Shown here in pieces: positions 22,164 through 62,198 of a stretch of DNA of 64,000 nt. This DNA is from Mesostigma viride (taxonomy: Eukaryota > Streptophyta > Mesostigmatophyceae > Mesostigmatales > Mesostigmataceae). How positions within the stretch are numbered: position 1 is the first letter of the stretch; every line of letters starts with the position of its first letter. The DNA is taken from assembly GCA_009746045.1 (NCBI GenBank), contig RPFO01000041.1, positions 1,474,783 to 1,538,782 on the forward strand, in the 5' to 3' direction. The notes below the pieces were generated by a model that saw only the letters and a list, made by a program, of their open reading frames with translations, was not told where the DNA came from and made no database searches. The position numbers and the translations under genes are program-made.

Positions 22164-22377
22164 TATCTCGGTGCATTGTACGTCGGTCAGTCGCAGCCAG
22201 CCGCTGACCGTAAAGCATGCGTAGTCTCAGCGTGCAAGAGTTAATTATGTGTGCTTTGGTCAGTTTGCAGTTGTCGTTGATGAAAAAGGAGGTGCTGGTG
22301 TGGCTGAATGGTTACTCTAATTTCCTCAGTACAGCGTCTTCGTGGGTGGCCGTCTTGGAATCAATTGGTTGTAACTT

Positions 22378-23820: not shown

Positions 23821-24049
23821 TCCGCCGGCCCCCGTCGAATACAACCCCGAGACTGGTGAACAGGAAGACGAGGTGGCCGAGATTGTGGACCACCGGGACA
23901 TCCAGCGCGGGAGAAGCAGACAGCGACAGTACCGAGTACGATGGCGTTTTACCCAGCACGACTATGAGGACTCATGGCGTACGGAGAACGAGCTAGGCGG
24001 ATGTGAGCGCCTGCTACGGGAATACAAGAAGAGGTGTGCCCTACACTAG
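23820..24049 (+). pseudogene. Chromodomain of element A integrase, out of frame
   Basis: In the second frame, ending with the stop at 24047-24049: EVAEIVDHRDIQRG, then QYRVRWRFTQHDYEDSWRTE and CERLLREYKK. This is the E-I-x-D-H-R ... Y-x-V-x-W ... W pattern of the chromodomain found in chromovirus integrases, which targets integration to modified histones. The net shift relative to the integrase frame comes from extra bases near 23800 compared with B2. Confidence 0.8.
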
Positions 24050-24705: not shown

Positions 24706-24922
24706 AGTAGGGCTGCACGCAAGCTACCTTTCAAAATTTTGCGCTAGTATGGAACGCATTTCATTCGTCTGGAGGAACGCTGCCCGCCAACTACCCCCGT
24801 TCAGAATGTTCCGCCGAAATTTACTTGAGATTTGGAAATCTGAACGTGCGCGCAAATTTTAGTAGGGCTGCACGCAAGCTACCTTTCAAAATTTTGCGCA
24901 AGTATGGAACGCAATTCATTCG
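24705..24922 (+). repeat. 218-bp direct repeat, left copy
   Basis: Identical by eye to 25702-25919. Within it a block starting GTAGGGCTGCACGCAAGC occurs twice, about 154 bp apart. The two copies bracket the palindromic cluster. Confidence 0.92.
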
Positions 24923-25598
24923 GCCGAATTAACTTGGGTGCTCGGAAGTGGTTATTCCGGGCAAAATAGTGTTACGGACCGATTTGCCTCAGGCGGCAAA
25001 AGGTTCCGGCACTATTTAACGTAACTAAAACCTGGCCTCGTGGAGGGGGGACGAAGAGCCCGAGACATCCGCCTAGGCCGCTGAGCACGCACCACTAAAT
25101 GCGCCGGAGCTGCCTCAGTGAGGATTCGAACCCCTGACCTCCAAGGTGCACAGGTTTTAGTTACGTTAAATAGTGCCGGAACCTTTTGCCGCCTGAGGCA
25201 AATCGGTCCGTAACACTATTTTGCCCGGAATAACCACTTCCGAGCACCCAAGTTAATTCGGCCGAATTAACTTGGGTGCTCGGAAGTGGTTATTCCGGGC
25301 AAAATAGTGTTACGGACCGATTTGCCTCAGGCGGCAAAAGGTTCCGGCACTATTTAACGTAACTAAAACCTGTGCACCTTGGAGGTCAGGGGTTCGAATC
25401 CTCACTGAGGCAGCTCCGGCGCATTTAGTGGTGCGTGCTCAGCGGCCTAGGCGGATGTCTCGGGCTCTTCGTCCCCCCTCCACGAGGCCAGGTTTTAGTT
25501 ACGTTAAATAGTGCCGGAACCTTTTGCCGCCTGAGGCAAATCGGTCCGTAACACTATTTTGCCCGGAATAACCACTTCCGAGCACCCAAGTTAATTCG
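24923..25598. repeat. Perfect 676-bp palindrome built of two inverted copies of a TIR element
   Basis: Call the ~110-bp arm X and the 118-bp middle L. The order is X (24923-25033), L (25034-25151), X' (25152-25260), then X (25261-25371), L reversed (25372-25489), X' (25490-25598). The right half is the reverse complement of the left, with its centre at 25260/25261 inside TTCGGCCGAA. Each unit reads TTAA-CTTGGG...CCCAAG-TTAA, so these may be two opposite copies of a small TTAA-flanked MITE. L carries a tRNA T-arm-like GGTTCGAATCC. Confidence 0.93.
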
Positions 25599-25702
25599 GC
25601 CGAATTAACTTGGGTGCTCGGAAGTGGTTATTCCGGGCAAAATAGTGTTACGGACCGATTTGCCTCAGGCGGCAAAAGGTTCCGGCACTATTTAACGTAA
25701 CT
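25599..25702 (+). repeat. Third, truncated copy of arm X
   Basis: It repeats the X arm up to ACGTAACTA, then passes straight into the right 218-bp direct repeat. It shows that a third unit existed or that the array was cut by recombination. Confidence 0.88.
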
Positions 25703-26152: not shown

Positions 26153-26950
26153 AGCCTCAACCGGCCCTTGCCCCCCAGCCTGCACCAGCGCAGCCTCAAC
26201 CTGTCCTGGCCCGCTCCGCAGAGACGCCGGTACAGGAGATCGCTCCGCGACGGGACGTGATACCGGCCCAGGAATGGGTACGGGGAACGTATGCCCGTAA
26301 TCGGATCATTGTCCCCTTGCATCCGGTTTTACTACCCCGCGAGCCTGCGCTTCCGTGGGGGCTCCAGCGTGCTTATTCAGCGGGAAGGCACCTTCGACTC
26401 GGTCAGCTTTCTCCTGCACGCACATGTGCCGGCGCCGGTGCCATCTGAGTCCCGCTATGAGCCGGTGATAGTAGGGACTACCGCCACGTACGATCTGCAC
26501 CCGCCGCCTCTGCCGCAATACCGCGCTGAGCACCACTTGCGACGGATTGCGTATCCCAAGCTCATGCCTATCCCGGGAGCTATCTACATGCGGAAGCAGC
26601 TCCCTGAGATTGCGGCAGCTCCGGGGTTCTACTGCGAGAGCGAGAAGGTCCAGAAGGAGCTGTTGCTCATGGCTGCCGGGTACTTCGCGGAAACTGGGTG
26701 CGAGGAGGTCGATGTGGAGCAGGGGTTCATCAGGTTCACCCGGCTCCCCTACATGGCGGCCTTCCTGTCGTACTGGCCGCCGGATGTGTGGATTGAGAAG
26801 TCCACGCTGCGTCAGCAGACGCGCAATGACTACCAGGTGGCGTTCAACGCCGACGTGGTCGCGGCTCCCCCTGGCAAGATCCCGGAGATCATGACCGAGC
26901 AAGGCTACAACGCGTTGCGGCGGCATCGCGCGCAGCAGGGATTCCAGTAA
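26153..26950 (+). pseudogene. Third ORF of element A, in the env position, unknown function
   Basis: Open from about 26153 (Pro/Gln-rich start EQPQPALAPQPAPAQPQPV) with one frame change near 26330, then to the TAA at 26950. The C-terminal 200 residues match those of the B2 third ORF in order: YYPASLRFRGG against HLPAPLVFQAG; FLLHAHVPAPVP against TFFPQAPLPLPQ; FTRLPYMAAFLSYWPP against FTHPQYLAGFLAMWPR; DYQVAFNADV against LYQIAFEVDL. No signal peptide, membrane span or known domain is seen, so an envelope role is not supported. Its N-terminal part may have been displaced by the inserted TIR element. Confidence 0.65.
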
Positions 26951-43367: not shown

Positions 43368-43950
43368 TGTTACGTCCCGGCCCTTCTAGTCGGACGTAAC
43401 AATGGAATAAATTACTAAGGCCTTGTGGCCGTTGTACTGAGTTTTATGAATATTGGCTATTTTGTGAATTGGACTAGTTATTTTGGTCCTAGGCTGACCT
43501 TTTAGGGGCCGGTGCCGTGGCGCCGCGCCAGTTCTGGGTCTGTCTATGGTTCTAGGCGTGGATCCTGTAGTTGGGGGTCGATGTCGGCCCGGATCCTACG
43601 TGGAATGAGTGAATTGGATTGGCCAGTAGGAATTGGTGTGTATCTGCGCCGCAACCAACCTAGGTTAAATTAGTCCGAGGACGAGAGTCTCGTCCTCTTG
43701 GTTTGATGAATGATAAGTGCGAATACGCCTACACATTGAGCCCGGGGCAACTATCCATTTGTAATTGGTCTTGCTAGCCATTATAAGTGTGTACAAATCA
43801 GCTTGGCATCAAGCCGTGATGCCAGAAATCTCACGACTCACGTCGTGAAGCGCAACCTACATTATGCTACCTTGAATTATTCCTAATTCCGGCAAGAAGG
43901 GTCTTTCGCTACGTAGCTCAGGCTAGAGGTGTCTGGGCTGGGACGTAACA
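43368..43950 (+). repeat. 5' LTR of Ty3/gypsy element B1 (outer copy)
   Basis: 583 bp, TGTTACGTCC...GGACGTAACA. Clearly diverged from the two B2 LTRs, so B1 is older. It is followed by the same leader (CTGGTTATCGGAGGAAATG) as B2. Confidence 0.9.
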
Positions 43951-44028
43951 CTGGTTATCGGAGGAAATGTGCTGGAAAGGTTAGCTAACTCTCGCGGAGA
44001 GGGTTAGTGAGCCAATTAGGATACCAAG

Positions 44029-44610
44029 TGTTACGTCCCGGCCCTTTAGGTCGGACGTAACAATGGAATAAATTACTAAGGCCTTGTGGCCGTTGTACTA
44101 AGTTTTATGGACAATGACTCTTGCGTGAATTGGACTAGCTATTTTGGTCCTAGGTTGCCCTTTTAGGTACCGGTGCGGTGGCGCCGCGTCAGTTCCGAGT
44201 CCATTTGTGGTACTAGACGTGGATCCTGTAGTTGAGGGTCGATGTCGGCCCGGATCCTACGTGGAATGTTTGGCTCGGATTGGTCCAGGGAAATTGGCAT
44301 GTATCTGCGCCGCAATCAACCTAGGTTAAATTGGTCCGAGGACGAGAGTCTCGTCCTCTTGGTTTAATGAATGATAAGTGCGAATACGCCTACACATTGA
44401 GCCCGGGGCATTATCCATTTGTGATTGGTATTGCTAGCCATTATAAGTGTGAACTAATTAGCTTGGCATTAAGCCGTGATGCCAGATATCTCACGACTCA
44501 CGTCGTGAAGCGCAACCTACTTTAGGCTATCCTGAATTATTCCTAATTCCGGCAAGAAGGGTCTTTCGCTACGTAGCTCAGGCTAGGTGTGTCTGGGCTG
44601 GGACGTAACA
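44029..44610 (+). repeat. 5' LTR of B2
   Basis: 582 bp, identical by eye to 54606-55187. Ends TGTTACGTCC/GGACGTAACA form a 10-bp inverted repeat; another GGACGTAACA about 20 bp inside pairs with the start. TATAAG near 44441 is a candidate promoter element. Confidence 0.94.
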
Positions 44611-44611
44611 C

Positions 44612-44626
44612 TGGTTATCGGAGGAA
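44612..44626 (+). promoter_or_regulatory. Primer-binding-site candidate of B2
   Basis: TGGTTATCGGAGG begins one base after the LTR end and starts with the TGG complementary to a tRNA CCA end. The tRNA was not identified. Confidence 0.6.
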
Positions 44627-44712
44627 ATGTGCTGGAAAGGTTAGCTAACTCTCGCGGAGAGGGTTAGTGAGCCAATTGGGATACCAAGGCTGAGTTTGAC
44701 GTAGGTAGAGGT

Positions 44713-44936
44713 TCCGGAATTCAACGACTGCTGACTGGTCGGCGGCCAGCCCGTAAAGGGATTCAACGACGACCTAGCCAGCAAGCGGCCAGTCTGGGAT
44801 ACTCGGCGGGGCTAGCAATAGTCCTGTGGTGAGGTGCTGTAAACGATAGCGTTCAGCTCTCCTGTTTTCAACGACACCTAGTGGCGGCCAGGGCTTGCCT
44901 TCAACGACACCGGGTGGCGGCCAGCTCAGGAGGATT
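44713..44936 (+). repeat. Leader array of TTCAACGAC...GGCGGCCAG motifs (B2)
   Basis: Four units open with TTCAACGAC and close with (G/C)GGCCAG: near 44719, 44761, 44869 and 44901. Unit length varies from about 25 to 31. The same four units occur in B1 (about 55223-55433). It may be an RNA structure for packaging, dimerisation or translation. Confidence 0.75.
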
Positions 44937-45343
44937 TAACGTCATCGATTATGGTGCGTCCCCTAGATAGGATACAAGCGATGCCTGTGGAAGGCTAGCT
45001 GGCTTGCTCGCTTTCTCTCCGGGTTCGCACGCGTAGGGGTTCTCGTTACACGTTGTGCCTCTATAGGGTGTGAATGTCGTTGGTTCGAATGGAAGTTGCG
45101 GACGACAACCATTCGTTGTTTTACATGTTGTGGGGGTGAATACCGTCTGGCTGTTGCCGACTGTGTTGACGGTGTTTACCTCCGTGTAATCGTTGTATAG
45201 CCTCTTTGCCGCGGATGGCGGGGGGCGTGTGCTGTACTACACTCCGTGCTCCCTCCTCGTTTGTTTAAGGTCACTGCATTAGAGGTAGCCTGGGTTTCCC
45301 CTTTCTCTCCTGCTTGCAAGCCGCTGCCAGACTATGATGTAAC

Positions 45344-45682
45344 ATGCCCCGACGTAAAATAAACAAGGGTGGACAGTCTGGATATCCTTACTATGCAGTA
45401 GCTCACGACGGGGATAAGGGTAGACCTGCTATATTCTACAGCTGGAAGACTTGTGAGGAACACATTAAAGATAAGATATTGTCCCAAGGCTCTAGTGCTA
45501 AGTGGAAAGGGTTTGATAACATTACAGATGCAGATAGGTTTGTTAGGGAACACATGCCATTGCCTGAGGGGATGCACATCACACGTGAATGCTCCAAGCC
45601 ACCCACGCTCAGCAGCCAGGGGGAGGGGACAGCAGTTACAGTTACCTTCTCTCAGCTGACCATTGGCCCTAGCAAACAGTAG
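45344..45682 (+). CDS. Pre-gag ORF of B2: stand-alone RNase H1-type hybrid-binding (Cauli_VI-like) domain
   Basis: 112 aa, ATG to TAG, 127 bp upstream of gag and in a different frame. Residues 13-70 fit the N-terminal RNA/DNA-hybrid-binding domain of eukaryotic RNase H1, also found in the caulimovirus translation-transactivator family: YPYYAVAHDGDKGRPAIF, YSWKTCEEHI, SSAKWKGFDNITDADRFVRE. Aromatic and basic positions of the fold (Y-Y-A-V, G-R, W, C, K-W-K-G-F, F-V) are kept. No RNase H catalytic domain follows; the tail is Ser/Thr-rich. Likely role: binding the RNA/cDNA hybrid or element RNA, or aiding translation of the downstream gag. Its presence in B1 as well shows it belongs to the element. 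Confidence 0.82.
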   Translation: MPRRKINKGGQSGYPYYAVAHDGDKGRPAIFYSWKTCEEHIKDKILSQGSSAKWKGFDNITDADRFVREHMPLPEGMHITRECSKPPTLSSQGEGTAVTVTFSQLTIGPSKQ

Positions 45683-45809
45683 AGGATACTATTACTAGGA
45701 AGTAATACTAGGTTCTATATCTATAGATCCATAGCACGTGGTTGCTCTTTCTCTCTCTCTTCTTTCTGGGGAGGTGATGCCTGCTGTGTAAGGTACCCGT
45801 ACGAGCACC

Positions 45810-46103
45810 ATGCCAACACGGTACCAGACAAGGAACGCCAGAGAGACAGAAGACGAGCTTAGGGAGAGAGACCCAGATAATAGAGAGATAGAACCGGTAG
45901 ACGACCACGAGCACGGTACAGAAGGGCTAGAGGTACCACCACAAGTAGAGACAGGTACAGGTGAGGTCATGGAGAGACCTGTGGAAGGCTCCCTACGATC
46001 CAGACCTAGCTCCCCAGTGGATGGGGACAATATAGACGCCTTAACCAGGCAGAGAGATGACAGTAACGACCGAGAGAGGCTCCACGACTACCCGCAGCAG
46101 CAG

Positions 46104-46156
<53 letters not shown>

Positions 46157-46157
46157 A

Positions 46158-46203
<46 letters not shown>

Positions 46204-47663
46204 CGCAGCAGCAGCAACAGCGGCAGCAACATCAGCAACAGCAACGGTCACCACAGCAGCAATGGCAACAGCAGCAACCCCGGATGCAGCAGCAACAACC
46301 CCAGACGAGACCACAATGGCTACCACCTGATCCAGAGCAGCAGAGAGACGAGATTGAAGATACCCTGCACTACCGCCGTCAGCAGCCAGTCACCGGGCGG
46401 CCCACGCATCCTTGGACAGGTCGGGGGCGGCCCCAAGGACCTCCACCGGGCCCCCCACACCGGGGCAGACGCAGAGTGTCCTTCGGCAGCACGTCCCTGT
46501 TACCCACGGCGCTATGGTATTCGGACGAGGAAGGGGAGGCCCCAGACGGCGAGCTTGATGACCTGGAGGGGACTAACGAGACGGACGAGGGCACTGTCAC
46601 GCAGGGCCCGCCTATTGGTACTCATAGACCTCGGACCAGCCCAGGGGAGACCAGGAGCAGTGTCACCACCAGAGACGAGGAGACTCACACGCCAGTCCAG
46701 CGCCCGGCATCTCACCCGCAGCGTCTACGGGCGTTTGACAGTAGCGTGGTCCCTTCGCCCGCGGCCGTCGGTAACCTGAATTTCAGCAGGGTGGCACTGG
46801 ATGACCCGGGGTACGAACACCCCTCGTCAGTACAGGTGCGCCGGACACACGGCACACCGGACAGATCCGGATCTCTCCCGCGGTCGCAGCCTCCAGCATT
46901 CGGCTCCATCTCCTACAGGGAGGTCGGCGGGCCTAAGCTTAACACGGTAAAGGCCCCACCGATGCCTACCTTCAAGAATGTACCCAAGCTGCACGCGGAT
47001 ATGAAACCGCGAGAGGTCGACGAATGGGGACGCATGTGGCAACAGCAGTATACCGTTTGGTGCAATCACAACAGCTGGGAACTGGCCACCTGCGATTTGA
47101 TCCCACATGTGGTCAACACCTGCATGGACCCCTCGGTGGTGAGCATCCTGAACTGTGAGAGCATCGCATCCCAGTCATACCCGCAAACCGTGGAGGAGCT
47201 GATGGACCGGGTGCGCCGCAAGCTGATACCCCCAGACGCGGAGCTCCACGAGCGGATCGCTTTCGGCAGGCTGCGCCAGGGGACCACCCCATATCGCGAG
47301 TTTCTGTCCAAGTTTGAGTCCAGCGCCGCTTATCTAACCGACATGACCTGGTACGAGTACAAGATCAGATTCATCGAGGCGCTCAGCCCCGAGCTGCAGG
47401 ACGAGGTATTCAAACACTACGCTGAGGTCCCCTGGAAGGAGTGGGACATCCTGAATATCCAGAGATACCTTCTGCAGGTGGCCGACGTGGTGTCTCGCGG
47501 GCGCGCACCCTCGGTGCGCCGTTTCTTCAGGTCAGCCACTGCAGGTCCGCGACGGGTGAACCAGATGTACTCTACGGAGCTCACCGGCGAGGAGGAGGAG
47601 GGGGGGGAAGAGGGCGGGTGGTCGGGCGAGGCGGCCTCCCGTCCCACCGCTCCTCGGGAGTAG
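45810..47663 (+). CDS. Gag of B2, poly-Gln-rich, no zinc knuckle
   Basis: 617 aa. A charged N-terminus (MPTRYQTRNARETEDELRER) leads to a Gln tract at about residues 97-150, a Pro/Arg-rich middle, then a retrotransposon-gag capsid domain around 390-575: PREVDEWGRMWQQQYTVWCN, GRLRQGTTPYREFLSKFESS, YKIRFIEALSPELQDEVFKH. The C-terminus ELTGEEEEGGEEGGWSGEAA is acidic, and no CCHC motif is seen. Gag forms the particle; nucleic-acid binding normally given by CCHC may be supplied by the basic stretches or by the pre-gag protein (inference). Pol overlaps in the -1 frame. Confidence 0.88.
46096..46218 (+). repeat. CAG/CAA trinucleotide tract (poly-Gln) in B2 gag
   Basis: About 40 consecutive Gln codons mixing CAG and CAA; B1 gag has a shorter, differently interrupted tract at 56620-56745. 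Confidence 0.95.
47600..47609 (+). promoter_or_regulatory. Candidate -1 frameshift site between gag and pol (B2)
   Basis: A run of eight G (47600-47607), read G-GGG-GGG-GAA in the gag frame, lies inside the overlap where the pol frame (-1) has no stops from 47441 and gag ends at 47663. It is suited to -1 slippage; a downstream structure was not tested. Confidence 0.45.
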
Positions 47664-49060
47664 TAGCCCTGCCCATGGGCTTGGGTCCCGGGGTAGGGGA
47701 TAGGGTAGAAAAATCAGATGGTAGCCCAGACGCGGAGTCAATTAGAGTAGAGGTAGACGTCAATAACGTGGCCGCAGACGCGCCCACCCAACCGGCGGCG
47801 CGTGCATCTCAAGGAGATTCGCGGCATCTGTTTCTTTTCAGCGGAGGGTTACTGGTCCCTCCCACCGTCCTTGATCCGTATTTGAAGGAGAAAACGATCA
47901 TGGACGTAAAGTTCCTGGTCGACACCGGCGCCTCCACGTCCTTCATCAACGAGGCCCTGGTGCGTCGGCTGGGCCTGGTACCTCGACCTCACACCACGGC
48001 AGTATATGTCACCTACTCAGACGGCCGGCGGCACCAATCGCCGGGCCTAGCAGACATCAAGGGTGTACTGCAGGGCACGCCGGTGGACCTGGTGGCGACT
48101 ATTGCGCCGTTGGGCGCTGCCGACATCATCATTGGAGTGGACTGGCTGGACAAGCAGGATGTGGACATCAGTGTGCGCCGGCGGGTGGTTTGGTTTCCGG
48201 ATGGTTCCTTCTGGTGCCCGGACAGCGAGTATAGGGCACAGGCCGCGGAGGTCCATAACATTACACACGAGCGCTCAGCGGACGGGCCCCGACCAGCGTC
48301 CCAGATCCTGATGAGTAGCAAGACGCTGGCACGCCAGCTCCGGAAGGGCAAGGAGTACGCGATGTATCGCATAGACCTGGACAGCACTCAGGCTCTGCTT
48401 AACGAGATTGGTGCTGGGTTCACACCGGACGAGCTGGCGCGGTTCAATGCCGTCCTGGAGAAGCGCACTGCCCTGTTCGCAGATCGCACTCCCCAGTTCC
48501 CTCCCAACCGATCGGTGTTGCATCGTGTCCAGCTTCAGGAGGGTTCCGGGCCTACGGTGTCTCCCATGTACCGCATGGGCCCAGTCGAGCTGGTGGAGCT
48601 CAAGAAGATTCTCATTTCACTGCTCGACGCTGGGCTCATTGAACCCAGCAACAGCCCCTTCTCAGCGGGCGTGCTGCTCGTTCCCAAGCCAGGAGGCAAG
48701 TGGCGTCTGGTGACTGACTACCGGAAGCTGAACGCCATCACCGTCAAGTCCCGGTATCCTCTACCGCGGATCGACGACATCTTCAACCGTGTCCAGGGGG
48801 CGACGTGTTTCACCGTCATCGACTGTGCGGACGGGTTTTGGCAGCTGCGCATCGCGCCAGAAGACTGCCACAAGACCGCGTTCGCTACGCCCTTCGGCCA
48901 CTATCAGTTTCGGGTGGCGGCAATGGGGCTGTGTAATTCGCCTGCGTCCTTCCAGATGCTGATGAATGACATCCTCCGCCCGGTGATGGGTACAGCCCAC
49001 CTGCCGCAGGTCTCCCAGGACCTGGCGGACCCGCAGAAGGGAGCCGCCCGCCCTGGACCT
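47664..49060 (+). pseudogene. Pol of B2, part 1: protease and reverse transcriptase fingers/palm
   Basis: Open in the -1 frame relative to gag (overlapping from 47441). Retropepsin: VKFLVDTGASTSFINEALV and a later GAADIIIGVDWL. RT: DAGLIEPSNSPFSAGVLLVP, KWRLVTDYRKLNAITVK, SRYPLPRIDDIFNRVQGATC, FTVIDCADGFWQLRI, FATPFGHYQFRVAAMGLCNS and PASFQMLMNDILRPVMG. The frame is lost near 49060, just before the catalytic YLDD box, after about 20 residues more than Ty3 elements usually have between LRPVMG and YLDD. Confidence 0.85.
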
Positions 49061-49985
49061 ACAAGCGCACGTGCGCGCTGGCGTATCTGGACGACATCCT
49101 GGTGTACTCCAAGACGTTCGAGGAGCACCTGGAGGATGTGGACGCCGTGCTGCAGATCATGGAGGATGAGCACCTTTCGGCGCGGAAAGCCAAGGTGCGC
49201 GCCGGTCGCTGCGTGCCGTTTCTAGGTCATACCCTGTCCGCGGACGGCATCGCGACCGACCCTGAGAAGATCGAGTCTGTCCAGCAATGGCCTGTCCCTA
49301 CGGACGTGAAAGGGGTACGCAGCTTCCTGGGATTGGCATCTTACTACCGCCGGTTCATCCCGCGGTTCGCCACCATCGCCGCCCCGATCAATGCTCTTCT
49401 CAAAAAGGGTACTCCGTTCCTTTGGGCTGAGCAGTGCCAACAGGCTTTCGAGGCGCTCAAGCGCCACCTCACCACAGCGCCAGTCCTTATCCTGCCGGAC
49501 CCGGCCCTTCCTTTCGTCGTGGCTACGGACGCCAGTAAGGTGGCCATCGGGGGTGTTCTCCTGCAGGACCACGGCAAGGGCCTTCAGCCCATCGAGTACA
49601 TCTCACGAACGATGATTCCGGCGGAGCGGAATTATCCAGTGCATCAGCAGGAACTCCTGGCAGTCGTCTACAGCTGCCACACGTGGCGTCATCATCTCTG
49701 GGGGCCCAGTTTTCGGTGGCCATCAGTGAGCAGGGGGATCTCGACCCCCATCGCCTGGTGATCCACACGGACCACCGGCCGCTCACCCACCTCCTGGTGC
49801 AGCCCAACTTGACGCCCCGCCAGGCGCGGTGGATGGAGTACCTGTCACAGTTCGCGCCGTTCAAGATCCAATATGTCAAGGGCGCGGACAATGTAGTGCC
49901 CGACGCTCTCTCGCGACGGGCAGACTACTGGTTCTACGAGGACATGGACGTGCTGCATACCACCTGTGTCCCAGTGGCCGCCCCG
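49061..49985 (+). pseudogene. Pol of B2, part 2: RT catalytic box, thumb and RNase H
   Basis: Second frame: CALAYLDDILVYSKTFEEHL (YLDD), GRCVPFLGHTLSADGIATDP, VRSFLGLASYYRRFIPRFA and the RNase H start FVVATDASKVAIGGVLLQ, EYISRTMIPAERNYPVHQQE, LLAVVYSCHTWRHHLWG. A change near 49695, in a G run, shifts to a third frame with VIHTDHRPLTHLLVQPNLTP, RQARWMEYLSQF and NVVPDALSRRAD. Confidence 0.85.
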
Positions 49986-49999
49986 GGGACCGCCTACGG

Positions 50000-51804
50000 T
50001 GTGGAACCACGGTCCCCCAGGCCCGCCACTTGTTTCATCTTGGGCACACCACCATGGATGACCTGTCACCCCTCCCGGAGGAGACGGTTCAACCACGAGC
50101 CCACGAGGACGTGGACACCCCCGGGGAGGGGGAGGGGTCGCATGCGCGCGTGCCCCTTAGTCATGTGGTGCCGCCCCAGGGAATTTTTCAGCTTCAGCCG
50201 CTCGGCCCTCCCACAGTCTTCTCAGAATTCGTCAACCAGGCTGGTACGGATGCGGCAGAACCGGCGGAGGACGCGTTCACTGTCACGTCGGACTTGGAGA
50301 TGCTGATCAGCCGTTTCACAATCACGGAGGAAGCAGCACTTGAAGCCATCCGGGCACATCCCCAGCAGATGGGGGCCTATCCTTGCAAGTTCCAGGAGGG
50401 GAAACTGTTCGTGAGTCCCCAGCCGGAGGATGGCGGCTGTATGTTCCTGAGCTCTGTAGGGCTGCCTTGCTTCACGAGCTCCATGATTCTCTCCTGGGCG
50501 GACATCAGGGAAGCCATCGTCTCCTTCCCCGGGCACGTAAGCACTTCTACTGGCCAGGGATGAAGGAGTATATCGAGACGTATGTGCGCCAGTGCCCCTC
50601 GTGTCAGATCATGAAGTCCAGGAACACGGGCTCTCAGGCCGTCCCTAAGACGCTGCCGGATCCTATGGGTCCTTGGGATTCTATCATGATGGACTTCATC
50701 GGCCCGTTCAAGAAGACGAAGAACGGCAACAGCATGGTCTTGGTGTTTGTGGACCGCCTGACGCGCATGTGTCACCTGGCCCCGTGTCCGGTCGACCTCA
50801 CAGCGGAGGAGTGCGCCAAGATATACCTGACGCACGTGTTTCGGTTTCATGGGCTCAGCCGGCAGTTCATCTCTGACCGCGACAAGCTCTTCACGGCCAA
50901 ATTCTGGCAGGAGTTCTTCGAGCAACTGGGCACCAAGGTGTCGCTGGGCACGGCCTATCACAGCTCGTCGTCGCACCTGGTGGAGCGGTTGAACCGCACG
51001 GTGCAAGAGACCATGCGACACTACACCGACACGGTGGGCAGCAATTGGGAAGAACTTCTGGGCTGGTGGAGTTTTCCCTGAACAATGCCCCCCAGGCCGC
51101 CCATGGGTTCACCCCCTTTTTCCTCAACTCCGGCCGACACCCTCTCACACCGCTCGACTTGCTTGGGAGCCACGAGCTGGGAGAGGATCAGGTCAGACTG
51201 GATACCCTGCAAGGGGTCGACCGGTTGCTGCAGCGGATGCACCAAGCGCATAACAGCGCGGTTCAGGGCTATCGCGCAGCGGCAGCACGGTATCTGGAGA
51301 GGACAGCCGGCAAGCGGGACCCAGGGCGCCGTCCATCGAGGTGGGCGATTGGGTCCTGGTCGAGGGCCCGCAGATCGGGCGATTTTCGCACAAGGTGGAG
51401 AAGGAGCTGAAGACTAAGCTCCGACCCATGTTCCTGGGACCCTACAAGGTCCTCACCAAGTTCGATGACGTCATGTTCCAGGTGGACATTCCAGTGTCAT
51501 GGAACCTCACGTCCAACCGTTTCCACCGTGACCAGCTCAAGTTGTATCACCAGAACACCATTCAGGGTAGGGTCAATCCCCCAGCCCCACTGGAGTTCAT
51601 CCTGATACGGGGGAACAGGAGGACGAGGTGGCTGCAATCGTGGGTCACCGGGATGTCAAACGGGGACGAGGGGTCCAGCGACAATATCGGGTGCGATGGC
51701 GATTCGCACAACACGAGTCTGAGGACTCCTGGCGCACCGCCCCCGAGTTAGCGGGGTGCGCCCGCTTACTAGAAGCATACAAGAAGACGCACCAGCTGCG
51801 TTAG
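50000..51804 (+). pseudogene. Pol of B2, part 3: integrase and chromodomain in several frames
   Basis: Linker GEGEGSHARVPLSHVVPPQG matches the first part of element A. Then HELHDSLLGGHQGSHRLL ... CPSCQIMK (zinc finger), MMDFIGPF, ISDRDKLFTAKFW and HLVERLNRTVQE (DDE), KLRPMFLGPYKVLTKFDDV, FHRDQLKLYHQNT, and a chromodomain EVAAIVGHRDVKRG, YRVRWRFAQHESEDSWRT up to the TAG at 51802-51804. Frame changes near 50430, 51063 (one base less than element A), 51320 and 51613. Confidence 0.85.
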
Positions 51805-51829
51805 CAGACCCCAGCCAGTAGGGTGTAGG

Positions 51830-54384
51830 GTGAGGGTGGTGCGTGGGCCAGGTATTTGGTACGCGTCGACTAACGCCCTGACATCTTGTGTGTGGGCTGT
51901 GCAGAGGGACGCCGCGGAGGCGCTTCCCAGAGACCAGACTCCCGGTGGCGCCGCGGAGGCTGCTGACACAGGATTCCGGGTTGCAGACGGGGAGTCCAGT
52001 GAGGGGGATTTGGTCGACATGGATATACAAGACGATCCGGAGGTCTCGGAGCCGGAAGCAGGGGTAAGGACGCAGATAGCTCGTGGAGAGCCTGCGGTCC
52101 GAAGGGATGCACCAGGGACCGGGGGTTTGAGAGATGGTGGCGGGCAGACGGGGCCCTCCTCTAGTCGCGAGCACCGGCAAGAAACCTCGTCAAGGCCTGG
52201 AGCACCGGACGCGCGTACGTTGGAGTTGGTAAAGGAGCTGCACGAGGAGACGTTCAATCCCCGGGTGTTCTTGCGTGACTACGGTCGGGAGGGGGAAACC
52301 CTGGTGGAACGACGGCGGCGTCGCCGTAATCAAATGCCGTCGCATCTCCGCGCTGATTCTATCATGGCGCGGGTCGGCCCTGTGCAGATGGAGACTTTTC
52401 GAGGGTTCGTGCGGCGCAACGTGAGGTTCCGGATCGAGACCCGCACGGCTGCGCACAATGGTGTGGTGGTTGGGACCGACTGGGAGACACATGAGCGGGA
52501 ATGCGCCTGTCACGGGTGCATGAACACGCTGGAAGCGGGGCTGGCATTCCCCGGCTCCTTCTCCTCTTACTTCCACCCCAGTGCGGCAGCTGCTGGAATA
52601 CCACTTCCCCCGGTATCTTCCGCCAGTGGGGGCGCTACGGGGTGAAAAATGCCTGCGAGAAGGGCAGTATTCGCTGCGGCAGGCTCTGGATCGCATTGTG
52701 GCGATGGATGATGAGGACCAGGATGATGGGAGTGAGGGATATGACTCCAGTTCCGACGACGACGACCATCCTCCACACCCTCCCTCTCGTTCCCCTCCGC
52801 GGGATCCGCCGTCTCGGGGTTCCCAGGGGAGCGGCGGAAGAAGCCGCCCTGTGCCTCGTTATGAGGCGCCACCGCCGGCGACGGGCTGGGGGCGACCTTC
52901 AGGGCGCGAGACGCGAAGTCTTCCAAGGGCGACCGGATGGGGTGGGGGCAGCCAAGCTGCCCTCGACGTGTTCCGGAGGGGCCGGCACGTCGTCGCTCAC
53001 CATCCCCGCCCTCCCGTTCGCGTTCCCGCTCGGACTCCGGGAATGATGTACGCCCCGCTCGCCGAGCGTCACCACCTCCTCGCCGACCAGCGGATCGGTA
53101 CTGGGAGCGCACGTGGGGGTCGGCGGTGGGGTTGGAGCAAGAGCGAGAGAATCGGCGACGGCGATCGGATCCGACAGAGACCGCAGTGGCCAGGGCCGAA
53201 CGGCCGGCTAGGGAGGAGCCGATTGATGAGGTTCCCGCTAGCAACCCGCCCGATGCGGGCCAAGAAGAGACTACCTTCCTTGTCTCCCTGGAACCGCGCT
53301 CCCGAGCGGAGGAGGTCCCACCGGAGCCCCACTTCCTGGTCTCCTTGGAGCCTCGTCTCCGGCCTGCCCAGGACGGACCGTCGATGTCACGGCCTGCGGA
53401 GGGACCGAGTTTACCTAGTGCAGTACGGATTGCCGCGGAGGGTCCTGGTGTGGCGGGTGTTATGGTGCCGGCGGAACCCGTGGTTACCCTTGAGACTCTC
53501 GTGGCTGCGGTGCAATCAGGGCAGGGTCTCATGCAGCGGATGCTGGACCAGCTCGGGCGTCAGGGAGATCACTCAGTCGCCACCTCAGTAGGCTACGAGG
53601 CCGCTTCCCGGGCAGCCTCACACGAGGAGTGGTCGCTGGGGGACTTCATGCGAACCATTCCGGGAAGGACCGTAAGACACGGTGGGCCGGGGCCTCGAAC
53701 GGAGAAGCTGTGCGTAGTGTTCGAGGGACCCATGTTCCCGGTCCCTCCTGGTATGCACCTGCCCGCTCCTTTGGTTTTTCAAGCGGGCCCGTGGTGCGCG
53801 GTTGACCGTGGTGCTTACTGGGAGCAACTTGAGATCACCTTCTTCCCACAGGCGCCGCTGCCCTTGCCGCAACCTGACGACCTGCGTTTTCCCCGGACGG
53901 TGGGCCACACGGTGCAGTTCGGTATCGAGAATTGGTGGGATTGGAGATATCAGGTGGATGGGGGGGGCATGTGGTTACGCCACCCAAGGTGGCTCCGGCG
54001 GAGGGACGCGCCTTCCTGGAACTGGTGGTGCCCGACATTGTAGGGGCCCCTAGAGCGACCATCCTCGAGGATCATGTGCGCACCGAGGTATTCATGATGG
54101 GGGTGAAGTTTGTTCGCGATCACCGTTGTGGGGCGGCGGATTGGTCGGCGTTGACCCTTCTCTTCACCCACCCCCAGTATCTCGCTGGGTTCCTGGCCAT
54201 GTGGCCCCGGGGCACGTGGGTGGAGCTGTCTCGGTTGGGTCGGCAGAAGACGTCCCTATATCAGATCGCCTTCGAGGTGGACCTATGCGCGCATCCAGGG
54301 GTGATGACTCACATCATGACCCCCGCGGGGCGACGGGCTCTCCATGAGGCCCAGCTGCGGCGGGCTACTAGCGGCGGACGCTAG
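51830..54384 (+). pseudogene. Third ORF of B2 between integrase and 3' LTR, unknown function
   Basis: Four overlapping open stretches: 51830-52645, 52581 on, 52937-54043 and 53932-54384. Changes fall near 52570, in a G-rich run near 52935 and in a G8 run near 53958. N-terminal part: RTLELVKELHEETFNPRVFL, the Cys cluster ECACHGCMNTL. Middle: Ser/Arg-rich (RRRSPSPPSRSRSRSDSGND) and acidic segments. C-terminal part: HLPAPLVFQAG, LEITFFPQAPLPLPQPDDL, FTHPQYLAGFLAMWPRGTWV, LYQIAFEVDLCAHPGVM, homologous to element A's third ORF. No membrane span or signal peptide, so no sign of an envelope; the RS-like part hints at RNA binding (inference). Confidence 0.65.
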
Positions 54385-54591
54385 ATTAGATAGTTCAGTT
54401 TCGGGATGGAACACGGAGTTCAATCCCCGCCAGGTTTTGGCTACTACGTCAGGGTTGGGCTTGTGTATCAACCTCTAGAGGAACTGGCATTACTGACCTG
54501 CGGGTGAACCGAGGTTGGGACATAGTACTCTTATAGTAGTCTTGTTTTGTGATCCTATTCTACCTTTGTACGGTAGGGACTACCGACCCCC

Positions 54592-54605
54592 GTGGGGGGG
54601 AGGAG
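54592..54605 (+). promoter_or_regulatory. Polypurine tract of B2
   Basis: GTGGGGGGGAGGAG directly before the 3' LTR. Confidence 0.85.
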
Positions 54606-55187
54606 TGTTACGTCCCGGCCCTTTAGGTCGGACGTAACAATGGAATAAATTACTAAGGCCTTGTGGCCGTTGTACTAAGTTTTATGGACAATGACTCTTG
54701 CGTGAATTGGACTAGCTATTTTGGTCCTAGGTTGCCCTTTTAGGTACCGGTGCGGTGGCGCCGCGTCAGTTCCGAGTCCATTTGTGGTACTAGACGTGGA
54801 TCCTGTAGTTGAGGGTCGATGTCGGCCCGGATCCTACGTGGAATGTTTGGCTCGGATTGGTCCAGGGAAATTGGCATGTATCTGCGCCGCAATCAACCTA
54901 GGTTAAATTGGTCCGAGGACGAGAGTCTCGTCCTCTTGGTTTAATGAATGATAAGTGCGAATACGCCTACACATTGAGCCCGGGGCATTATCCATTTGTG
55001 ATTGGTATTGCTAGCCATTATAAGTGTGAACTAATTAGCTTGGCATTAAGCCGTGATGCCAGATATCTCACGACTCACGTCGTGAAGCGCAACCTACTTT
55101 AGGCTATCCTGAATTATTCCTAATTCCGGCAAGAAGGGTCTTTCGCTACGTAGCTCAGGCTAGGTGTGTCTGGGCTGGGACGTAACA
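54606..55187 (+). repeat. 3' LTR of B2
   Basis: 582 bp, identical by eye to 44029-44610. Followed by CCAAG, the second copy of the target duplication, and then the interrupted leader of B1. Confidence 0.94.
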
Positions 55188-55222
55188 CCAAGGCTGAGTT
55201 TGACGTAGGTAGAGGTTCCGGA

Positions 55223-55859: not shown

Positions 55860-56201
55860 ATGCCTAGACGTAACAGAATAAATAAGGGTGGACAGTCTGG
55901 ATTTCCTTACTATGCAGTAGCTCATGACGGGGATAAGGGTAGACCAGCTATATTCTACAGTTGGAAGACTTGTGAGGAGCACATTAAAGATAAGATATTG
56001 TCCCTAGGCTCTAGTGCTAAGTGGAAAGGGTTTGACAACATTACAGAAGCAGATAGGTTTGTTAGGGAACACATGCCATTGCCTGAGGGGATGCACACCA
56101 CACGTGAATGCTCCAAGCCACCCACGCTCAGCAGTCAGGGGGAGGGGACAGCAGTTCCAGTTACCTTCTCTCAGCTGACCATTGGCCCTAGCAAACAGTA
56201 G
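55860..56201 (+). CDS. Pre-gag ORF of B1: hybrid-binding (Cauli_VI-like) domain
   Basis: 113 aa; differs from the B2 copy by five substitutions and one extra codon near the N-terminus (MPRRNRINKGGQSGFPYYAV). By eye eight further codon differences are silent, so protein-level constraint is likely. The domain core, from PYYAV to DRFVREH, is intact apart from conservative changes. It survives in an element that is truncated and interrupted. Confidence 0.82.
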   Translation: MPRRNRINKGGQSGFPYYAVAHDGDKGRPAIFYSWKTCEEHIKDKILSLGSSAKWKGFDNITEADRFVREHMPLPEGMHTTRECSKPPTLSSQGEGTAVPVTFSQLTIGPSKQ

Positions 56202-56329: not shown

Positions 56330-56664
56330 ATGCCAACACGGTACCAAACAAGGAACGCCAGAGAGACAGAAGACGAGACTAGGGAGAGAGATTCAGATAA
56401 TAGAGAGGTAGAACCTGTAGACAACCACGAGCACGGTACAGAAGGGCTAGAGGTACCACCGCACGTCCAAGTAGAGACAGGTACAGGTGAGGTCATGGAG
56501 AGACCTGTGGAAGGCTCCCCACGATCCAGCTCTAGTTCCCCCGCGGATGGGGACAATCTAGACGCCTTAACCAGGCAGGAAGATGACAGAAGTGACCAAG
56601 AGATACTACAAGGGGACTCGCAGCAGCAGCAGCAGCAACAGCAGCAACAGCAGCAGCAGCAACG

Positions 56665-56699
<35 letters not shown>

Positions 56700-56700
56700 C

Positions 56701-56735
<35 letters not shown>

Positions 56736-56824
56736 GGCAACAACGGCAACCCCGGATGCAGCAACAACAACCCCAGACGAGACCACAATGGCTACAGTTA
56801 ACGTTCTTAGCAAACGCAATGTGA
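56330..56824 (+). pseudogene. Truncated gag of B1
   Basis: Matches B2 gag through the Gln tract to PQTRPQWL (about 56797), then runs a few codons into foreign sequence to a stop. The capsid domain is lost. Confidence 0.85.
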
Positions 56825-58240: not shown

Positions 58241-59971
58241 TTAGACAGATAGACCGACTTGACAGTCAGCATTCATGAGCTTCCTCAGTACATTGTACTG
58301 GGCTGGGGCCTTGTGTGGCAGTTTTGTCAATGCATCAGCAGGGTTCTCCTCGCCAGGGATATGCTTCAAGTCAACCAAACTGGCCAACTCCTTCAGCAAC
58401 AAATAATCCAGGTCCCGGCTTCTGGCCAGCTGCTTGTGAACAAACTGGACCATACCCATGCTGTCTGTTAGCAACAACGTCTCCATCTGCAAGGTCCAAG
58501 GGGTAACTGAAGCCAGCTCCAGCATTAACTCCTTTATGTACAGGCTGGACTGGATCCCCTCGCATATGGCCCTGCATTCTGCCACATCTGAACTGATACA
58601 GACCCTCTTCTGCAGTCTGCTGTACCAGCTGAACAAACTTGCCCTGCTCTGATAAAAAGCAAACAGAGCAGCAGATCTCCCCCTGACCTTGGTAACCTGG
58701 CGAGCATCCATGGAACTGTCAACAAAGATCTCCAAGGTGATAGGCTGGGCAAAGTCAATCCCAGACAAAATCAGATCAGGGGTACTCTCCACCAACCGGG
58801 CTATGACTCGAGGCTTCTCATCCTCAAGCACCTCATCAGGCATTCTGCTATGGACCATCAAAGACGGACCACAGATGCTGGCAAACCAGGCCCACATGCC
58901 TCTCAACTCAGGTCCTGCAGCCTGGGTGATCTTCTCTGGCAAGGCCTTCACAATGGTCTGTTTATAATCTCCTCCAGCCTGAAGCCTGATACTCCACTCC
59001 CCGTCCCTCCTGAACAGGGTAGCCTGCATTCCACAGAACACTACAGGCTTGTTGGGCTCCTGCCACAGCTCCTTGCCCAGTGAAAACTTGCCACTGATGA
59101 CAGGAATAAACTTCTTCAGCCAGGTCGTGGGGGCTAGCAAATGCAGATCATCTCCATGCAAACTAGCATACACTGGCAGACCCTCCCATTGGGCCAGCAG
59201 CAAACAGGGATCAACTGAAGACACTCTCAAGCCACACTCACTGATCAGAGCTTCCTGCAGCGTGAGTCTCCAGATGATTGGGCTCGACCTGAGTCCTTCC
59301 AGGCCCTTCAGAATAACCAGGAATTGTTGATGCAGCTCCAGCTTCCAGATGGCAGGCACCTCAACACAGTAAGGCTCATCCTGCTTCCACACCCTCCTAG
59401 CCACTTCTGGATCAGATTTTAAAAATGCCCTCTTGAAGTCCAGCAGCACTGATGACATAGCTGCTCCCCTGTTCAGCAACCCCACGTAGAGACATAGCAA
59501 AATTCTCCATGTGTCGTGTAGCATCCCTGGCGTGTATAGCTCCTCTCCTGGCAGACTCCCCGTGCCGTGATACTCATTCAGGACAGGCCTGACATGGGGC
59601 ACTGATACCTCATCCACAACCTTCCTCTTCAGCACAAATCTCAAAGCAAGCTTCCTTGATGCTGGGGGACGTCTGTCTGTTGGTGCAGCACACTCAAACT
59701 GCAACCACTCCTCCAATGCCTTGGAGAAGGCGAGCTTCCAAGCCTCAAACAAAGTAGGCGAGCTCATCTCTTGGACCAGCTGGTCATATGTCAAAGGAGA
59801 GTGTGCAGCAAGGCTCCTGTGGGTTATGCCAATACTGCTGGGGTGCAACACAGCTGGAATCACCAAACTGGCCGCTGGGGGCACCTCCCCTTCATCCCAT
59901 TTTACACCCTTGACCGGCTTGGCCCTGCACCTGACTGGAAATGTTGTCCTGAAATTTTCTAGGGGAATCAT
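58241..59971 (-). pseudogene. Copia-type reverse transcriptase and RNase H
   Basis: 576 codons from the inner copy of the duplication: MIPLENFRTTFPVRCRAKP, then RT with SSVLLDFKRAFLKSDPE (first Asp), LKGLEGLRSSPIIWRLTLQE, VDPCLLLAQWEGLPVYASLH-GDDLHLL (GDD in place of the usual copia VDD), and RNase H with EIFVDSSMD, ISSDVAECRAICEG, LLLTDSMGMVQFVH and LKHIPGEENPADALTKLP. Converts element RNA to DNA. Separated from the upstream pol by the frame-breaking duplication. Confidence 0.84.
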
Positions 59972-60340
59972 CCCTCTTCAGCACAACCTTCCTCTTCAGC
60001 ACAAATCTCAAAGCAAGCTTCCTTGATGCTGGGGGACGTCTGTCTGTTGGTGCAGCACACTCAAACTGCAACCACTCCTCCAATGCCTTGGAGAAGGCGA
60101 GCTTCCAAGCCTCAAACAAAGTAGGCGAGCTCATCTCTTGGACCAGCTGGTCATATGTCAAAGGAGAGTGTGCAGCAAGGCTCCTGTGAGTTATGCCAAT
60201 ACTGCTGGGGTGCAACACAGCTGGAATCACCAAACTGGCCGCTGGGGGCACCTCCCCTTCATCCCATTTTACACCCTTGACCGGCTTGGCCCTGCACCTG
60301 ACTGGAAATGTTGTCCTGAAATTTTCTAGGGGAATCATCC
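59615..60340. repeat. 359-bp tandem duplication with 8-bp spacer
   Basis: 59615-59973 and 59982-60340 appear identical but for one base (GGGTTATGCC/GAGTTATGCC). The offset is 367 bp, not a multiple of three, so it shifts the pol frame. The spacer CTCTTCAG also occurs at the junction, suggesting slippage. Confidence 0.93.
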
Positions 60341-62198
60341 CCCAGCCATCTCTTCTCAGAGCTGTAGCTCTGATAGAAATCCCAGGATTGCCCAGAAAAT
60401 TCTGACCCAAAATCACAGGGCCATCATAGTCCTCTAGGACAAGGAAGGTCACATCCACACCCATGACAGGGGCAGTAACCTCTCCCAACACCCTTAGATG
60501 CGTCCTACCACTGAAATCAGACACCCAGGGGCAACTTGGTTCTCCGACCAGCAGTTCTCCTGTATGCTGAGGTCCCATGACAGAAACCTGTGCATTGGTA
60601 TCTATCTCCATGGCAGCTACCTCAGGTTCATCCAACTGGACAAGCTTGGACACCTTAGGCTCCTTCTTGGCTCTTTGCAAAGCCTGTACAATATCTGATA
60701 GACGCACACCCCTAGGCCTGGTGTCGGGCCGTTCCGGAGGTGCAGCCTGTCCGCCTGCTTGCCCAACCACCGTATGTGAAGGTACCCCAGGGGCCGGGCC
60801 AGGGTCACCCTGAGGGCTCGATACAGCTGTAGCACCCTGATCAGGAAGCTCCACGTCACCCCCGCCTTGTACACCAGCGGGCACCTGGAAGAGGTCTCCT
60901 TGATTACCTCCCCGGGGACGGATCTTTGACCAGGACAGACGGTGCACTGCTTGGGAGCCATCAATGGCCACCCAGCACTTATGGCCAGCGGCTTCTACTC
61001 GGGTCACCACCCCATCATGCCAGCTGCCACGTTTCCCTGGAAAGCTTGGTTCCTTCCACACAACAACCTGTTGTCCAACGTTAGGTTCTAGGACACTCCA
61101 GCCCTTGTCTTTCTGCCTCAGCTTGAGGAACTTGGCCTCTAGCTTCTCCTTCCATGCCTGCTCAGCATCAGCTGGCAGCATCCTGGTATGCAGCATAAGA
61201 GGATTGATGGCAATGTCACCAAAGAACATGGGAGTCCTCAGGTTCAGCCTATCCTCCACAGAACGTAGCCATGCAGATGTCACAATGGCAGATGACGTCC
61301 TTGGAATCCTCTCCACCAGCAGCACAGTCTTGATCTCTTGGATGGCTCTCTCCACCACCCCTTGCTGGCCGTGGCTCTCCCTGGGTGTAATCAGCAACTC
61401 TGGAAACTCTGGCAGGTTCTCACAGCACTCAAACTGAATGTCACACTGCAACAACTCCAACCCAGGGTACCTGCTCCTTGTCAACTTCAGAGCAGCAATC
61501 AATGTAGGCTTCTCCATGTCAGGCAGGATCTCTAGGGTCTTGTACTTGGTATATCTGTCCACTGCCACCAGCAGCTTCAAACCCCTGATTCTCTGAATAT
61601 CTACCTGCACATGGCCTGGCTGCAAAATAGGAGTCCTGGCATGAGACTGCTTGGGCTTTCTAGCAACTAGCCTGCACTTGCAAGCTTGAGCAACCTGTTG
61701 GCAGATGGAGTACAACTCACTTCCTCCCAGCCGTCTAGCAACTTGCAAAGACTGAGCTGCATGGCCAAACATGGTATGCAACCTTGAGGCAATGTCATAC
61801 AAGAGAGAAAACCTTTTATTGTCATTATTAGCACTCAAGGTATGTACAGATCCCTTATGTACAGGAGGCACCAGGGTCGTGCCTGTCAGACTGTCTCCAG
61901 CCCTATCCTCATCCTGACCATCCTGTGCCAGTCCTGCACGGTCAGAATGCTTCTGAGATCCACCTGGGTCCACATCACCAGGTCCTACCTCAGGCTCAGC
62001 ACCGCCATGGCGGGCACGTTGGCGAGTAACCACTGCAGCTACAGCTGGCATACTCTCTGTGGTAACCAAGCTTGCCCCATCGTGTCCAATAGGCTCTTTC
62101 ACTAGAGCATGGGGCTGCCCCTCACTGCCGTCACTAGCAGCTACATTACACACCCCTGGGGGCACCCTCCAGGGTTCAGGGATGTGTGCAGGCTCAAG
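59982..62198 (-). pseudogene. Copia-like pol, first part: integrase then retropepsin-like domain
   Basis: Same frame as gag after one UGA. Integrase: HTMFGHAAQSLQVARRLG ... CQQVAQACKC (zinc binding), VQVDIQRIRGLKLLVAVDRY (D), LLQCDIQFECCENLPEF (D), QGVVERAIQEIKTVL (E), then a C-terminal part with VGQQVVVWKEPSFPGKRGSW. Downstream, not upstream, comes a retropepsin-like segment: MEIDTNAQVSVM (DTNA in place of DTGA), RVLGEVTAPVMGVDVTFLV and PVILGQNFLGNPGISI. Protease after integrase is not the copia order. The reading frame ends in the duplication near 59892. Confidence 0.78.

Follow-up and report, generated by a model that had tools for sequence, protein, structure and literature searches.

A small RNase H1-type hybrid-binding domain protein encoded ahead of gag in Ty3/gypsy elements of Mesostigma viride

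What is a small reading frame with an RNase H1-type domain doing ahead of gag in a retrotransposon? The question is raised by a 64,000-nucleotide stretch of the Mesostigma viride genome (contig RPFO01000041.1, positions 1,474,783 to 1,538,782, here called the window), which contains a long terminal repeat (LTR) retrotransposon of the Ty3/gypsy type with a separate open reading frame (ORF) between its 5' LTR and gag. A preliminary description, made from the sequence alone, proposed that this pre-gag ORF encodes an RNase H1-type hybrid-binding domain (HBD), of the Cauli_VI family shared with the caulimovirus transactivator (TAV), and no catalytic domain. Our analysis leads us to regard it, with a probability of about 0.93, as a true accessory gene in a clade of Ty3 elements, encoding a small basic HBD protein with a conserved tail; this assessment follows from its domain, position, conservation and purifying selection. 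LTR retrotransposons are considered to fix additional conserved domains only rarely (PMC9289625), and a domain so fixed can reveal a bottleneck in the life cycle of the element. The features concerned are as follows.

45344 to 45682, forward strand: pre-gag ORF with an ATG start, 112 amino acids, stand-alone HBD/Cauli_VI protein (ORF translation, Pfam, genome copies, dN/dS)
45386 to 45541, forward strand: HBD/Cauli_VI domain, residues 15-66 (Pfam and alignment with human RNase H1)
45635 to 45679, forward strand: C-terminal tail, residues 98-112, VTVTFSQLTIGPSKQ (family B and the ENA proteins P0002 and P0003, introduced below, have a tail like it)

The pre-gag ORF is indeed separate, being closed by a stop ahead of gag, which is the next large ORF on the same strand and begins 3' of it at 45810. 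Fusion of the two by readthrough was ruled out for the window copy: the pre-gag ORF has its own stop and is in another frame than gag, the two starts being 466 nt apart (45344 to 45810). Pfam matches the 112-residue product to PF01693 (Cauli_VI, 'Ribonuclease H1 N-terminal domain') with an E-value of 6e-7 and 30.1 bits, the gathering cut-off being 21 bits. The match covers residues 15-66 and model positions 1-44 of 44, which is the whole domain. No other Pfam family exceeds its cut-off in this product, and this includes the catalytic RNase H domain; NCBIfam returned a bacterial RNase H model alone, far under its cut-off. The predicted structure also agrees with the proposed assignment, having an HBD-like fold with the strand and helix order of the RNase H1 HBD, although Foldseek run by itself with the model of the window family (family A) gave nothing informative. 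The protein is small and basic, with one RNase H1-type HBD and a short conserved C-terminal tail. Its presence at this place is confirmed and is more than chance, because a second copy in the window has the same Pfam match and further copies exist in the genome.

Alignment with the human RNase H1 HBD places W34, W54, K55 and G56 opposite W43, F58, K59 and K60 respectively. At the hybrid-contact positions W43 and K59 are therefore kept, and K60 is replaced by glycine in the window family and is lysine in family B. W43, K59 and K60 are reportedly the residues changed in the WKKD protein, which is said not to bind hybrid. The window family has insertions relative to the human domain: four residues after the first strand, one in the helix region and four before the F-K-K segment. 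The pre-gag protein thus has in common with the eukaryotic RNase H1 HBD (PDB 3bsu and 1qhk; PF01693) a full-length domain, the order of strands and helices, and the W43 and K59 positions. It differs in standing alone without a catalytic domain, in having its own C-terminal tail, in being encoded ahead of a retrotransposon gag, and in the change of K60 to glycine.

The 440 Mb assembly (2243 contigs) was searched with the 112-residue protein. Among 836 candidates 150 were scored, including both window copies; all 150 have E ≤ 4.2e-67, and 148 have no internal stop. A second search with PF01693 gave 1764 candidates, of which 150 were scored and 30 loci classified; the other 120 scored matches resemble family B in score and length. 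Thirteen of the 30 loci (L068-L080) form family B, with a protein of about 130 residues, and 11 (L054-L059 and L062-L066) form family C. The most complete copy of family C, L054, has 229 residues, with one domain visible to Pfam (residues 77-120, 74.3 bits), and a degenerate HBD N-terminal to it which is seen solely by alignment with families A and B. In L054-L059 the hybrid-contact loop is lost in the first apparent HBD and kept in the second. When the window Gag was compared by tblastn with the 1.5 kb downstream of each locus, it matched 6 of the 13 family B loci (L068, L071, L072, L073, L078 and L080), 6 of the 11 family C loci (L054-L058 and L063), and none of the remaining 6 PF01693 loci. 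Longer stretches were taken for two family B loci, L084 with an intact flank and the interrupted L081, and for one locus each of family C (L082) and of a further group, D (L083). Ty3 pol follows gag in L082 (72% identity over 248 residues of the reverse transcriptase (RT) part) and in L084; L081 switches to another element after gag. Over about 190 residues of RT, identity is 81% between families A and B and 83% between A and C, and Gag identity in the three family comparisons is 28.5-29.7%. Families A, B and C are taken as separate families with a common layout, and the ORF is accordingly present both in other members of the window family and in two further families.

The remaining PF01693 loci place the domain in other settings. 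In the three loci of group D (L060, L061 and L067) the HBD opens an ORF. At the one locus of these that was followed (L060/L083), a LINE-type endonuclease lies behind the HBD, as a weak match of 21.7 bits against a Pfam cut-off of 27.4; the neighbouring frame has no Pfam match. This raises the possibility that HBDs were acquired by different kinds of retroelement in the genome. A single ORF at L051/L052 (G000:C1413:498342-498782) contains two HBDs and, after them, what may be the beginning of a PIF1-like helicase (17.9 bits, cut-off 25.9). The host itself encodes an RNase H1-like protein, L053, with an HBD and an RNase H-type domain (RVT_3 above its cut-off, RNase_H below).

Is the ORF then maintained by selection, or is it simply carried along? 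The loci compared were the 30 best protein matches (L001-L030, L006 being the window copy) and others chosen among the lower-ranking of the 150 scored matches (L031-L050). All were retrieved by protein score, which lowers dN. Across the different sets dN/dS for the pre-gag ORF is 0.11-0.16. For family A the ratio of nonsynonymous to synonymous differences per site is 0.112 (33 distinct sequences, 528 pairs), and it is 0.145 in a stricter set (23 distinct sequences from the 35 of 52 ORFs that pass the start and length pattern); for the gag segment it is 0.209 (42 distinct sequences, 861 pairs). Family B gives 0.159 from 9 of its 13 copies, L071, L075, L077 and L079 being left out as truncated or frame-broken. 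Identity and insertions were counted in the 50 loci and the two window copies, in the rows where BLAST aligned and with deletions uncounted. The ORF is on average 97.1% identical to that of the window copy, against 94.2% for the leader and 93.3% for the spacer, and insertions relative to the window copy that are not a multiple of three occur in 0 of 52 rows for the ORF, 20 of 49 for the leader, 24 of 52 for the spacer and 3 of 46 for gag. Within family B the tail (residues 113-130) is as constrained as the domain, with nonsynonymous differences per site (nd/N) of 0.032 and 0.039, and the linker is looser (0.098). In family A, constraint at residues 71-82 is lower relative to the synonymous rate (0.029 versus 0.074). 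Taken together, these sequence comparisons show purifying selection on the pre-gag ORF.

It could still be proposed that the ORF is a chance or passenger frame, a captured and functionless fragment of a host RNase H1. The genome does encode a host protein of this type (L053), and some copies of the element are recent. However, the low dN/dS, the open frame in 148 of 150 copies (found by protein score) and the presence of the ORF at the same place in three families make this very improbable indeed. In one comparison, L032 and the window copy differ at 30 of 71.7 synonymous and 9 of 264.3 nonsynonymous sites. A gap of this kind at high synonymous divergence is hard to obtain from ascertainment by protein score alone, although this is an argument and not a test.

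If the ORF is an accessory gene, what would its product do? The preliminary description offered three functions: binding of the RNA/cDNA hybrid, promotion of reinitiation at gag, and packaging of RNA in place of a Gag zinc knuckle. The last of these is refuted. A CCHC knuckle is common, but not universal, in Ty3/gypsy elements. It is missing from the window Gag through a deletion of about 435 nt at 47588-47599; this segment is present in two other copies of the window family (L085 and L086), and the knuckle is encoded in both of these as well as in one copy of family B (L084) and one of family C (L082). These relatives encode both the HBD protein and the knuckle, and replacement of one by the other is ruled out.

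The mechanism that we favour, and to which we give slightly less than an even chance, is that the ligand of the HBD is duplex nucleic acid from the element itself, and that the tail attaches the protein to a partner from the same element. The duplex would be the RNA/cDNA hybrid formed in reverse transcription, double-stranded parts of the genomic RNA, or both, and the partner could be, for example, Gag or the pol products. The protein would act beside the Gag zinc knuckle and not as its substitute. This level of confidence reflects the largely retained contact residues, the basic character of the protein, its coexistence with the CCHC knuckle in relatives, and the HBD at the head of an ORF upstream of the LINE-like endonuclease (the single locus and weak match described above). 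In family B the protein would come from the unspliced, genomic RNA and Gag would be made after splicing, as predicted from the splice-like signals described below.

The strongest rival, though an unlikely one, is that the protein is a translation factor like caulimovirus P6/TAV, allowing ribosomes that have read the pre-gag ORF to reinitiate at gag. The two systems are alike in being reverse-transcribing, in having a Cauli_VI domain apart from pol, and in arranging ORFs in series. They differ in that the pre-gag protein has just 112 residues and TAV is much larger, that only the dsR-type motif is recognised in it, and that its ORF comes first, ahead of gag. The position of the ORF would suit reinitiation: no other long ORF lies between the 5' LTR and it, and in the window copy the 127 nt between its stop and gag contain one further ATG. 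The domain itself is common to both proteins, and the TAV dsR domain, which includes this motif, is situated in mini-TAV and has eL18, eL13 and TOR as binding partners (PMC5902531). On the other hand, the other RNA-binding, zinc-finger and nuclear localisation signal regions of P6/TAV (layout from the accessible part of PMC5670102) have no match above the Pfam cut-off in the 112 residues. Moreover, a TAV-like activator outside the Caulimoviridae was not known according to the available text of a 2018 review (PMC5902531), the HBD also occurs near a LINE-like endonuclease in the same genome, and splicing seems able to remove the ORF in family B, which would make reinitiation needless. It is worth adding that the window copy has 9 ATGs between the 5' LTR and the pre-gag ATG, so that ribosomes simply scanning from the cap would probably not reach even the pre-gag ORF. 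The leaky scanning described for rice tungro bacilliform virus (RTBV), which passes through an ORF free of AUG (PMC5902531), is not favoured here: there are ATGs within the ORF in families A and B, and one after it in A.

The splice-like signals are clearest in family B. Of the 13 loci, 12 have the motif AGGTG[AC]GT just 5' of the pre-gag ATG and the thirteenth (L071) has another sequence there; none of 839 control stretches, each 46 nt long and from the same loci, contains the motif. GTGAGT and GTGCGT are favoured donors in algae. Past the stop, 5 of 10 readable loci have a pyrimidine tract and YAG at the same distance, and in the other 5 these are absent at that distance. Such donor- and acceptor-like signals would make the pre-gag ORF the body of an intron, a prediction from sequence. 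The window family has a pyrimidine tract 5' of gag, and in its leader there is one weak candidate donor:

44954 to 44959, forward strand: donor-like GT[A/G/T]CGT, its GT kept in 46 of 46 aligned copies

Other leader GT sites (44701 and 44829) are kept as well as this one. In family C, a scan of one copy (L054) showed no strong donor shortly upstream of the ORF. These signals raise the possibility of a switch in RNA fate, in which the protein made from unspliced RNA favours unspliced, exported and packaged RNA over the spliced gag mRNA, in a manner like Rev or Cer1 CERV. Cer1 CERV is required for export of unspliced RNA (PMC10309623, in the part available), and the family B counts given above point the same way. 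We nevertheless find this quite improbable: half of the readable B copies have no YAG at that distance, the window family candidate is kept no better than other GT sites, none is strong in L054, and the B copies are related, so that conservation of the motif is not independent evidence. Another reading, rather unlikely in our view, is a TAV-type system, independent of or ancestral with that of the caulimoviruses, in which the Cauli_VI protein would steer the choice that ribosomes or the spliceosome make between its own ORF and gag on a single RNA of the element.

The 40-residue motif has affinity for dsRNA in addition to hybrids (Cerritelli 1998, cited in PMC5902531), and the protein could by this means be a silencing suppressor that shields double-stranded RNA of the element from host RNA interference. 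Nothing among the present findings points directly to this, and we hold it to be highly doubtful.

Where did the domain come from? Two profile searches of a protein collection gave 13 and 15 matches, of which 5 and 8 also have an RNase H domain. P0002 and P0003, on short ENA contigs, consist of the HBD and a tail; they were found in the first search and belong to the query alignment of the second, and are not among its listed matches. P0004 (EukProt, labelled Alexandrium andersonii) has 73 residues and is 90% identical to family B, and is perhaps a contaminant. P0010 (Calypogeia fissa) has an HBD followed by LGLHV. Both P0004 and P0010 were part of the second profile query, so their matches in that search are circular. 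The motif G-[LMV]-H follows the domain in families A and B, domain 1 of family C, P0002, P0003 and P0010, and a hydrophobic C-terminal tail is found in A (VTVTFSQLTIG), B (LTLEFGSLSITV), P0002 and P0003. A tree of the short domain places B, P0002 and P0003 together with a support of 0.986 and A elsewhere, with many low supports. A single ancestral capture is favoured by position, motif and tail; the tree does not resolve one capture from several. Searches with P0001 gave 0 matches among PDB sequences, one candidate and none scored among 5.8 billion proteins, and nothing informative in genome_contigs; viral_contigs searched with the family B protein and with P0002 also gave nothing informative.

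The literature searched, which held few subscription papers and had preprints and Repbase outside it, showed no HBD or Cauli_VI protein encoded by an LTR retrotransposon. The extra ORFs of other LTR retrotransposons (plant aORFs, bdelloid DEDDy ORFs and an orchid AlkB-like ORF) are likewise conserved, some with a recognisable domain, but no HBD is listed among them in the available parts of PMC7264820, PMC5408684 and PMC9289625; plant aORFs lie mostly between pol and the 3' LTR (PMC7264820, same limitation). The capE gene of Pleurotus ostreatus, captured by a Helitron, is also a PF01693 gene on a mobile element (PMC4289320, in the part available), but its carrier is a rolling-circle DNA transposon without reverse transcription, unlike the Ty3 element. 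That three Ty3 families have, under apparent selection, a stand-alone protein with a domain of the hybrid- or dsRNA-binding type suggests that the RNA/cDNA hybrid or the genomic RNA needs to be protected, marked or passed on, a task generally ascribed to the Gag nucleocapsid and the RNase H of RT itself. A caulimovirus-type domain in a non-viral relative also makes testable the origin of the TAV domain, its first use, and the order in which hybrid binding and translation control arose. If the TAV-type reading were true, these elements would be the first TAV-like users outside the Caulimoviridae, and the TAV domain could have originated in them.

The element in the window is of the Ty3/gypsy type, as first described: it has gag followed by protease, RT, RNase H and integrase, with an SH3_Tf2-1 match, LTRs and a CCAAG duplication, and the same order of gag and pol parts was found in one B and one C copy. 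The window in fact carries two elements of one family, the younger (44029-55187) sitting in the leader of the older, which runs up to 44028 and resumes at 55188. A tandem LTR arrangement was ruled out, the CCAAG duplication indicating a nested insertion. All of the following are on the forward strand.

43368 to 43950, forward: LTR of the older, outer copy, the insertion host (LTR comparison)
44024 to 44028, forward: target site duplication CCAAG, left (sequence)
44029 to 44610, forward: 5' LTR of the young, inner element, TGTTACGTCC...GGGACGTAACA (same sequence as the 3' LTR)
44612 to 44624, forward: putative primer binding site TGGTTATCGGAGG, with TGG at its start (follows the 5' LTR)
45810 to 47663, forward: gag ORF, 617 amino acids, with a poly-Q region (ORF; lacks the zinc knuckle through the deletion described above)
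47441 to 49225, forward: protease and RT, the frame leaving RT short of its end (ORF, Pfam)
49102 to 49761, forward: RNase H part of pol, RT_RNaseH (Pfam)
50383 to 51081, forward: integrase, H2C2 and rve (Pfam)
51341 to 51751, forward: SH3_Tf2-1-like C-terminal integrase domain (Pfam)
54592 to 54605, forward: polypurine-rich tract GTGGGGGGGAGGAG (adjoins the 3' LTR)
54606 to 55187, forward: 3' LTR of the young element (LTR comparison)
55188 to 55192, forward: target site duplication CCAAG, right (sequence)
55860 to 56201, forward: pre-gag ORF of the outer copy, 113 amino acids, intact, same PF01693 match (ORF, Pfam)
56330 to 56824, forward: gag of the outer copy, truncated (sequence comparison)

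The LTRs of the young element have TG..CA ends and 0 differences over the 583 positions compared, yet between 47441 and 51751 its pol is in several frames and its Gag has the deletion, as if it had been copied in trans. Five other copies (L001, L002, L003, L007 and L009) are 99.3-99.8% identical to it over the aligned 5' part. Between the integrase and the 3' LTR (51830-54384) there are further large ORFs; the one tested, 52937-54043, has no Pfam match. The remnant of a related Ty3 element lies at 22308-23996 and 26291-26950, its DNA being 74% identical to 50130-51787 of the window element, and its 3' ORF recalls, by eye, the ORF at 53932-54384. Elsewhere in the window there is a perfect inverted repeat at 24915-25608, with two 347-nt arms, no spacer, and more direct copies around it. 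A direct duplication of about 370 bp (59597-60341, 98% alike) spans the overlap between two ORFs of Copia-like appearance by eye. The window also contains a gene like CFAP44, which suggests a flagellated host, CFAP44 being a cilia- and flagella-associated protein.
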